Virus record (IMG/VR): IMGVR_UViG_3300022744_000065
Span: 1 to 38,318 of that record
Source of the DNA: a virus
Strand: one strand, 5' to 3'
DNA length: 38,318 nt
Within the stretch, counting starts at the first letter, position 1. Each line of letters opens with the position of its first letter. The notes beneath the pieces were generated by a model. That model searched no databases and was not told the origin of the DNA. It saw nothing but the letters and a program-made list of their open reading frames with translations. Below are positions 34,931-37,680 of the stretch, in pieces. The position numbers were made by a program, and so were the translations under genes.

Positions 34931-35036
34931 ATACCAAGTCTACGAGCATTACAAAAAGCAAATCGCCGCCACCTCCCAGACTCCAGCGGAGTACGAGAGA
35001 CGGATTAATGCACTTGTCAAAAGGTTGGGAGTATGA
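34917..35036 (+). CDS. Small basic protein (39 aa)
   Basis: The ATG at 34917 lies 14 bases inside the previous gene and follows AGGCGAG. The 39-residue product begins MFKNKYQVYE and is basic and helical. It ends in an ATGA overlap with the start of one of the two overlapping frames that follow. Function unknown. Confidence 0.45.
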   Translation: MFKNKYQVYEHYKKQIAATSQTPAEYERRINALVKRLGV

Positions 35037-35908
35037 AATGCGAACATTACACCTATTCGCCGGAGCAGGAGGTGGACTCCTCGCAGACCTTATCCTTGGG
35101 CATACCCCAATCGCCGCCGTCGAGTGGGACCCCTACGCCTGCGCAGCCCTCCGATCCCGTGCAGCCGATGGATGGTTCCCCGGCCTGCATGTGCACGAGG
35201 GAGATATTCGGCTGTTCGAACCATCCCAATACGCCAGCAGAGTGGATTGCATACATGCGGGATTCCCTTGTCAGGATATTAGCACTGCAGGAAAAGGAGC
35301 GGGAATTACAGGAGCTAGAAGCGGCCTCTATACCGAAGTCATGCGAGCAATTGACGCTATTCGCCCTCGATTTGTTTACCTCGAAAACTCCCCTGCCATA
35401 CGCACCAGAGGCCGGCATGTGGTACTTGGCGAATTGGTGGCGCGAGGATACTCCTACCGTGACGGAATCCTTGCCGCGGCTGATGTTGGAGCCAATCACA
35501 GGCGGAATAGATGGTGGTGCTTGGCTACCAACGCCAACAACCCAGGACAACAATCAAATAAAGGGCAAGGGCAAGAGAGGCACGACTCTTGGAGGCCCGA
35601 ACCAGAGGGACAGCAAGGGGAACCTCGCACTGCCAGCCTATGCAGCGCAATACCCAACCCCGAAATCCCGAGATTTTCGGACGGGAGACAAAACAAAAGG
35701 AAGCCTTCGGCGGATGCGCAAGAGCAAGCCTGGAGCGATAGGCCCGGACCTGAACGATGTGGTGGCGCCTGGTGGTCAGTTGAACCCGCCGTGGGTCGCC
35801 TGGCTAATGGGATGGCCCTTAGGGCACACCAAATTAAATGCCTCGGAAATGGACAAGTACCTCTCTGCGCGTCGGCGGCGTGGAAACTCCTCGGAGGCCC
35901 GTAAATGA
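35033..35908 (+). CDS. Overlapping-frame methyltransferase-associated protein (291 aa)
   Basis: This frame starts five bases before and ends four bases after the C5 methyltransferase, completely co-extensive with it. It is open for 291 codons and contains LPTPTTQD (165-172), YPTPKSRD (207-214) and LNPPWVAWLMGWPLG (250-264), which I recognise as typical of proteins and C-terminal regions associated with phage DNA methyltransferases. It starts in an ATGA overlap and could be translated by coupling. It may be a genuine second protein or a conserved by-product of the first frame. Confidence 0.55.
   Translation: MKCEHYTYSPEQEVDSSQTLSLGIPQSPPSSGTPTPAQPSDPVQPMDGSPACMCTREIFGCSNHPNTPAEWIAYMRDSLVRILALQEKERELQELEAASIPKSCEQLTLFALDLFTSKTPLPYAPEAGMWYLANWWREDTPTVTESLPRLMLEPITGGIDGGAWLPTPTTQDNNQIKGKGKRGTTLGGPNQRDSKGNLALPAYAAQYPTPKSRDFRTGDKTKGSLRRMRKSKPGAIGPDLNDVVAPGGQLNPPWVAWLMGWPLGHTKLNASEMDKYLSARRRRGNSSEARK
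35038..35904 (+). CDS. dcm-like: C5 cytosine DNA methyltransferase (288 aa)
   Basis: The C5 methyltransferase motifs are in order: motif I LFAGAGGGL (6-14), motif IV GFPCQDIS with catalytic Cys78, motif VI ENS (116-118; canonical ENV), motif VIII RRNRWW (155-160), and motifs IX-X (VGRLANGM, LGNGQVP near the end). It methylates cytosine in a short DNA site, likely to evade restriction. The ATG at 35038 has GGGAG six bases upstream. The target-recognition region (about 165-245) is low-complexity Gln/Pro/Arg/Gly-rich, overlapping the other frame's most conserved part. Confidence 0.88.
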   Translation: MRTLHLFAGAGGGLLADLILGHTPIAAVEWDPYACAALRSRAADGWFPGLHVHEGDIRLFEPSQYASRVDCIHAGFPCQDISTAGKGAGITGARSGLYTEVMRAIDAIRPRFVYLENSPAIRTRGRHVVLGELVARGYSYRDGILAAADVGANHRRNRWWCLATNANNPGQQSNKGQGQERHDSWRPEPEGQQGEPRTASLCSAIPNPEIPRFSDGRQNKRKPSADAQEQAWSDRPGPERCGGAWWSVEPAVGRLANGMALRAHQIKCLGNGQVPLCASAAWKLLGGP

Positions 35909-36497: not shown

Positions 36498-36678
36498 AAT
36501 GATTGAGGTGAAAGACTGTGCGTCATGCCCTGAATGCGGCCCAGCGGGAGAAGGTGGCACCATGTATCGCTTTTATTGCGACATGAAAGAAAGAAGAATC
36601 GAAAAAGAAATTGCGATTAAAGGGTATCCAGATTGGTGCCCTCTTCCGGATATGCCAAAGCAAGGGAATGGGGCATGA
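36490..36678 (+). CDS. Cys-rich protein, CxxCxxC...DWCPL type (62 aa)
   Basis: GAGGAG (36478-36483) precedes the ATG. CASCPECG, FYCDMKE and YPDWCPLPD repeat the C-terminal domain of the 116-aa protein at 2412-2762, so this is a stand-alone paralogue. The shared five-Cys pattern suggests one metal-binding fold used at least twice. Confidence 0.65.
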   Translation: MSKMIEVKDCASCPECGPAGEGGTMYRFYCDMKERRIEKEIAIKGYPDWCPLPDMPKQGNGA

Positions 36679-37112
36679 GCAAGAAACCCGACCGCCACGC
36701 ATGGACCAAGGGGATAGCGGGAGCTATTGGAGCGGCTGAGAAGCCAAAGGTAAAGCGAGTCACCAAGGCCAGCGAACCGGAGAAGGACATCCAGGCCAGG
36801 GCTGAAAGCCTTTGTGATGCTCTTGGTATTCGGTGGTTTCGGATTCCTGACACCTTGCTCGGATACCTGAAAAACAACCAATCAGTACCAATCTGGGCGC
36901 GCGTGATGATTGGCCGATACTTTCGCGGGGTACCTGATTTGATGCTATTCAAGAGGCTTGAACCAGGTGATAATGTTTGCCGATTCATTGAGATCAAAAC
37001 CGAGGTTGGAAAACTAAGCCAAGGACAAAATCAATGGCATCGAGGGCTTAACGTCCATGTCACCTATGGGTGGGCTGAGACAGAAAAAGCAATAAAGGAT
37101 TTTATCGCTTGA
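36675..37112 (+). CDS. VRR-NUC domain nuclease (145 aa)
   Basis: Phage nuclease of the VRR-NUC/Holliday-junction-resolvase-like class. Key residues are in order: E37 with DIQARAESL, IRWFRIPD, GVPDLMLF (D88), FIEIKT (E106, K108) and KLSQGQNQWH (Q117/Q120). It could resolve branched DNA before packaging. The true start at 36675 overlaps the previous stop; an earlier in-frame ATG lies inside the neighbouring gene. Confidence 0.85.
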   Translation: MSKKPDRHAWTKGIAGAIGAAEKPKVKRVTKASEPEKDIQARAESLCDALGIRWFRIPDTLLGYLKNNQSVPIWARVMIGRYFRGVPDLMLFKRLEPGDNVCRFIEIKTEVGKLSQGQNQWHRGLNVHVTYGWAETEKAIKDFIA

Positions 37113-37158: not shown

Positions 37159-37680
37159 ATGATGATGCGAGATATTAGCCATAAAGGCGGAACCAGAGAT
37201 AAAACTGTTTCCAGTAAAGGTGTGCAGGATTATGCAACGCCTACCGAATTGATTCTTGCTGTTCAAAGGGATTTAAAAAAGATCGCTTTCGACCTTGCAG
37301 CAACATCATTAAACGCGGTAGCTCCTTTTTGGATAAGCAAGGAAAACGGCGGGGACAGCTTAAAAGCTGATTGGCTTGCAGATTATAATTACCACAAAAG
37401 CAATGGCGTTCTTTGGCTAAATCCTCCATTTAAAACCGTGCGTCCATGGATGGAAAAATGCCGTGATGAGGCTGCCAGGGGTTGTGTGATATTGAGCCTA
37501 ACTAAGGCCAGTATTGGATCGAGATGGTACCGTGAGGTAGTCGCGCCAAACGCTGCCAGCTATATCCTCGGTTCGCGCGTAACCTTTGTCGGAGAAAAGC
37601 AAGGATTTACTCAAGACCTTATGCTGACAGAATGGGGTACGGGAAAGACTGGGTTGGGTTGGTGGGATTGGAAGAGATGA
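37159..37680 (+). CDS. dam-like: Phage DNA N-6-adenine methyltransferase (173 aa)
   Basis: FDLAA (44-48) for SAM binding and NPPF (88-91) as the catalytic DPPY-type motif define the small phage Dam-like family. It methylates adenine and probably protects phage DNA from restriction. Three ATG codons stand in a row (37159, 37162, 37165); AAGGG seven bases before the third suggests translation from the second or third. The same gene end is repeated at 1-158. Confidence 0.88.
   Translation: MMMRDISHKGGTRDKTVSSKGVQDYATPTELILAVQRDLKKIAFDLAATSLNAVAPFWISKENGGDSLKADWLADYNYHKSNGVLWLNPPFKTVRPWMEKCRDEAARGCVILSLTKASIGSRWYREVVAPNAASYILGSRVTFVGEKQGFTQDLMLTEWGTGKTGLGWWDWKR

Follow-up and report, generated by a model that had tools for sequence, protein, structure and literature searches.

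In this work we have examined two overlapping reading frames, A and B, in a viral DNA stretch of 38,318 nucleotides (IMG/VR record IMGVR_UViG_3300022744_000065; hereafter the window), and we consider it very probable that they encode a single phage C5-cytosine DNA methyltransferase as two subunits. We favour this reading because both frames are under selection, because of the way the methyltransferase motifs are placed in them, and because B is homologous to the part of single-chain enzymes that holds the target recognition domain (TRD) and motif IX. An earlier note on this DNA had described two plus-strand frames that cover one stretch of ~870 bases, begin five bases apart and each have a candidate ribosome-binding site; direct reading of the sequence gives the same coordinates, lengths and sites, with B in the +1 register relative to A. 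The three motifs which the note had picked out in B, LPTPTTQD, YPTPKSRD and LNPPWVAWLMGWPLG, were all located there and are listed with the other features of the locus:

35021–35024, + strand: AAGG, candidate ribosome-binding site of B, 8 nt upstream of the ATG at 35033 (direct reading)
35027–35031, + strand: GGGAG, candidate ribosome-binding site of A, 6 nt upstream of the ATG at 35038 (direct reading)
35033–35908, + strand: frame B, putative second subunit, 291 aa, with TRD-like repeats and motif IX
35038–35904, + strand: frame A, C5 cytosine methyltransferase large subunit, 288 aa, with motifs I–VIII and X
35053–35076, + strand: motif I of A, LFAGAGGG, AdoMet site, conserved in A1/A4
35260–35283, + strand: motif IV of A, GFPCQDIS, with the catalytic Cys78; C78 invariant (n = 69 sequences)
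35380–35394, + strand: motif VI of A, LENSP; E116 and N117 invariant
35494–35514, + strand: motif VIII of A, NHRRNRW; H154, R156 and R158 conserved
35525–35548, + strand: LPTPTTQD of B, first TRD-like repeat; family consensus PTP
35566–35799, + strand: A residues 177–254, predicted disordered, at the position of a would-be TRD; pLDDT mostly below 50, with B the constrained frame by substitution phase
35651–35674, + strand: YPTPKSRD of B, second TRD-like repeat; family consensus WPTPxA
35780–35824, + strand: motif IX of B, LNPPWVAWLMGWPLG; L250, N251, P252, W254, W257, M259, G260 and P262 at least 90% conserved (n = 71 sequences)
35842–35862, + strand: motif X of A, LGNGQVP; N271 and Q273 invariant

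Among the other genes of this virus are P22-like portal and coat genes and one for a Prim-Pol/DnaB-type replication protein. Just downstream of the two frames lie a Dam-type adenine methyltransferase (37159–37680) and a VRR-NUC nuclease (36633–37112).

Frame A matches PF00145 over residues 1–171 (Pfam search, E 2e-31) and phrog_363 over residues 1–284 (PHROG search, E 1.6e-53), and its motifs follow the C5-methyltransferase order, namely I, IV with PCQ, VI with ENV/ENS, VIII and X. A TRD and motif IX are not found in the same chain: the Pfam match ends at residue 171, residues 189–249 are disordered and motif IX lies in frame B. The AlphaFold model of A (pTM 0.71) is confident in its catalytic core and in the helices of motif X, and the Rossmann core matches those of M.HhaI (a protein of 327 residues) and M.HaeIII over about 169 columns. 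Low complexity had been remarked earlier at about residues 165–245 of A; it is indeed present, at about residues 163–250, and pLDDT falls below 50 at residues 177–179 and 189–249. Judging from the model, A appears to have no target recognition domain, and would fold as an AdoMet-binding catalytic domain made up of motifs I–VIII and the motif X helix.

Could B supply what A lacks? In the PHROG search, B matched a family labelled DNA methyltransferase (phrog_1008, E 2.6e-14), the outcome of a profile search that the earlier note had proposed. The best-conserved block of B, LNPxWVEWLMGWPxG, has the pattern of C5 motif IX and is preceded by the PTPxxxD repeats. Columns ~160–250 of the B profile match the stretch that lies between motifs VIII and X in single-chain phage enzymes, with i-E values of 6e-12 for Rita gp76, 1.6e-10 for Hamulus gp68 and 2e-8 for ArcusAngelus gp74. 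The note was thus right to associate the second frame with phage methyltransferases; the best reading of the sequence goes further than the note did and would make B the half of the enzyme, with the TRD and motif IX, that A lacks. It is very improbable, in our opinion, that B is instead a phage protein in its own right, such as a regulator or an anti-restriction factor, which overlaps A by chance and has no part in the enzyme. Such a protein would fit with the finding that B has no match in Pfam or NCBIfam and no confident fold (the model of isolated B reached a pLDDT of 61.6 and a pTM of 0.34), but B is always paired with A, carries exactly what A lacks and matches the TRD/IX segment of single-chain enzymes, and in relatives motif X moves into B. 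A profile search of B against the solved structures of the PDB returned chance matches only.

The pairing of the two frames is seen in each of our samples of homologous loci. All 24 viral loci recruited by B sequence also contain an overlapping A. For a second set we recruited 74 viral loci through A alone, so that it is not conditioned on B; a third, independent set consists of 80 bacterial or prophage loci recruited by two A motifs only. The A motifs used for recruitment come from one clade. All 188 loci with a clear A gave a +1 B match, and the two-frame arrangement is conserved in at least 150 related viral and bacterial loci. A tblastn search of phage records with the window's own B gave no match; with B of a relative (L032) as the query, 84 phage records matched. 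Matches in a plasmid search with A were mostly partial, and a search of E. coli with the Kluyvera copy found four prophage-type genomes only and no EcoHK31I system.

The +1 frame of A is strongly depleted of stops. As the expectation we took the stops that appear after shuffling the synonymous codons of A within each gene. By this measure the window alone has no +1 stop where 5.9 are expected, and an open run of the natural length was reached in none of 200 shuffles. In nearly every one of the 74 viral loci recruited through A, the +1 frame stays open along almost the whole of A. Across 75 distinct loci with a near-complete A there were 59 stops in the +1 frame against 402 expected, almost all of them at the two ends of A, with a single stop over residues 40–243 against about 237 expected; the +2 frame of the same loci showed no depletion (1116 against 950). 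The 80 bacterial or prophage loci had 2 core +1 stops (231 expected). Homologues with B broken and A intact would, according to the earlier note, refute the overlap; over A residues 40–243 B is not broken in this way, with three isolated single stops in 155 loci.

Might B nevertheless be a non-gene, the open shadow of a conserved, GC-rich frame A? Part of its apparent conservation is such a shadow: the first half of the B profile also finds matches in the +1 frame of single-chain enzymes, and after shuffling the +1 frames of the loci average 164 bits against that profile. However, the stop depletion, the substitution phases described below and the profile scores far exceed what a shadow would give; the natural +1 frame outscores all 20 synonymous shuffles in 75 of 75 loci, against a profile built largely from those same loci. 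Single-chain mycobacteriophage methyltransferases, which are themselves GC-rich, have as many +1 stops as expected (7 against 6.3, 8 against 9.6, 11 against 9.4 and 11 against 9.2). We find a non-genic B hardly credible: the synonymous shuffles, the substitution phases and the single-chain controls rule out a chance or shadow ORF at the level of selection.

We compared the phase of substitutions in 24 pairs of relatives, each locus being used once and kinship otherwise being ignored. The earlier note had supposed that constraint is split along the length of the overlap, and the wobble substitutions agree: they favour A at its residues 0–163 and 262–288, where differences fall mostly at the third position of A (the commonest in 24 of 24 pairs), and favour B at A residues 163–262. 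In the latter region the differences at the third, first and second positions of B number 660, 370 and 449 (n = 1479, chi-square p 1.6e-20), and the third position of B, which is the first of A, is the commonest in 20 of 24 pairs. Residue differences in three bins of this region are 0.55, 0.53 and 0.33 for A against 0.46, 0.37 and 0.23 for B. Synonymous-site constraint in A, whose absence the note had named as a refutation, is present as well, with 0.18–0.23 third-position differences per codon at residues 40–163 against 0.33–0.35 at the ends of A; since third positions are quieter there than at the ends, both frames matter at residues 40–163. The locus thus combines stop depletion with phase-specific constraint in the second frame, the two marks of an overlapping pair under dual selection, and selection on both frames is confirmed.

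The end-to-end co-extension of the frames holds insofar as both are open throughout, but the exact match at the 5' end is partly incidental, because the first ~40 codons of B have little constraint of their own and contain stops in some relatives. The ATG of B lies at −5 or +4 relative to the start of A in many loci. An in-frame ATG of B at +217 from the start of A (codon 75 in the window, in EWIAYMRDSL) recurs in many of the loci L033–L103; it may be forced by the His-Ala codons of A, or it may be an internal start.

The enzymes of Mycobacterium phages Rita, Hamulus and ArcusAngelus are single chains in which an A-type catalytic core is followed by the B-profile stretch and then by motif X. 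In Streptomyces phage Sebastisaurus (gp34/gp35) and in loci L021 and L024, A ends after motif VIII and B runs through motifs IX and X. The single-chain, end-to-end split and two-frame layouts explain each other on the assumption that A and B are two pieces of a single enzyme. Single indels swap the A and B frames in L089–L092 and L098, and in L090–L092 the indel fuses the N-terminal half of A to the TRD and motif IX of B; as this layout is common to all three loci, which come from different metagenomes, sequencing error is not its obvious cause. Is it possible that programmed ribosomal frameshifting joins A and B into one chain instead of two proteins? In Sebastisaurus, L021 and L024 a single +1 shift after motif VIII would give a full chain of motifs I–VIII, TRD, IX and X, and the indel of L090–L092 already links the two parts. 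In the window, however, with B +1 to A and motif X encoded by A, a single chain would take two opposite shifts, and A and B each retain their own start and stop; we regard frameshifting as very unlikely.

Returning to two subunits, perhaps phages have repeatedly rearranged one C5 methyltransferase among single-chain, end-to-end split and co-extensive two-frame forms, whereby the recognition half evolves in its own frame over a disordered linker of the catalytic half. We put this forward tentatively, as somewhat less than an even bet. If it is true, target specificity could drift at little catalytic cost with the halves still linked in the genome. Two further loci deserve mention. In L021 (1829–2894) an ORF that encodes an HNH endonuclease domain (phrog_2340, E 6e-19) interrupts the A gene; it is perhaps a mobile intron or insertion. 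In a prophage of E. coli PCP07014 (L203, 3340–3400) both frames have stops a few bases apart, and the annotation calls the gene a pseudogene on which it marks an internal stop.

We propose that A and B are translated from their adjacent starts and then assemble, both being needed for activity. A would bind AdoMet and catalyse, and B, read in the +1 frame, would bring the target recognition segment, with its PTPT...D repeats, and motif IX. A particular cytosine-containing site of the phage DNA would then be methylated by the complex. Orphan methyltransferases of phages usually serve to shield the viral genome from host restriction, and this would most likely be the purpose here too.

In public records B is usually unannotated and A is sometimes missed. 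B is unannotated in Salmonella phage S9-5, Manatee Spring phage, Mycobacterium phage SG4, Pseudomonas phage phPA-G and Acinetobacter phage ABMM1. In the records of Vibrio phage 1.236 and Acidovorax phage Alfacinha3 the reverse holds: frame B was called as the gene and A was left out. The public annotation of loci L199 (1108–1839) and L200 (976–2176) chose B, as a hypothetical protein and as a cytosine-specific methyltransferase, respectively, and missed the catalytic A. In Streptomyces phage phiBT1 (L193, 1762–2691) gp9.1 is recorded as a possibly inactive methylase, and its B partner, which lies alongside and overlaps it, is unannotated. Because gene callers retain one frame, many phage methyltransferases may have been cloned or judged incomplete with half of the enzyme absent. 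Split methyltransferases serve as tools for targeted DNA methylation (PMC3439449), and A/B loci are a natural supply of them. Overlaps of ~870 bases on one strand in which both frames are under strong selection are also rare, and well suited for study.

How does the pair relate to known systems? M.EcoHK31I, to which M.EaeI is related, recognises YGGCCR, and M.AquI recognises CYCGRG. Lee et al. (1995) reportedly found that the smaller polypeptide of M.EcoHK31I is read from the larger gene in an alternative frame, as B is from the A gene in the window. According to its published description, the larger polypeptide of M.EcoHK31I contains motifs I–VIII and X and the smaller one motif IX, and its predicted TRD is assigned to the larger subunit (PMC3404938). 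Compared with that description, A and B share the distribution of motifs but differ in that the TRD-like segment is in B, its counterpart in A being disordered and unconstrained. B is also about as long as A (291 and 288 aa), and the pair is phage-borne, with no restriction gene noticed adjacent to it. As the TRD-like part is in the second frame, we regard the pair as a variant of the M.EcoHK31I type and not as a proven member. In M.AquI one chain has motifs I–VIII and the other IX–X (PMC3404938). The window resembles it in having two chains split within the variable region, and Sebastisaurus gp34/gp35, L021 and L024 have the same I–VIII/IX–X distribution; in the window, however, motif X is in A, not with IX in the second chain, and the genes overlap over their whole length. 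Rita gp76, Hamulus gp68 and ArcusAngelus gp74 have the same catalytic domain, TRD, motif IX and X parts and PTPT repeats, but all in one frame, whose +1 stops are not depleted. The families matched by A and B, phrog_363 and phrog_1008, are entered in PHROG as two separate 'DNA methyltransferase' families, with no mention of the overlap. An annotated B nested in a methyltransferase gene does exist in Paenibacillus phage Diva, where it is called 'g49 internal gene' (DIVA_50) and carries no annotation beyond hypothetical. Our literature search on overlapping phage methyltransferases found nothing on the A/B system; HNH endonucleases hidden in alternate frames of insertions in phage methylases are the subject of a 2025 paper, but this is a separate phenomenon. 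The kind of arrangement is already known from M.EcoHK31I, and what is new here is its scale across phages and the placing of the TRD in the second frame.
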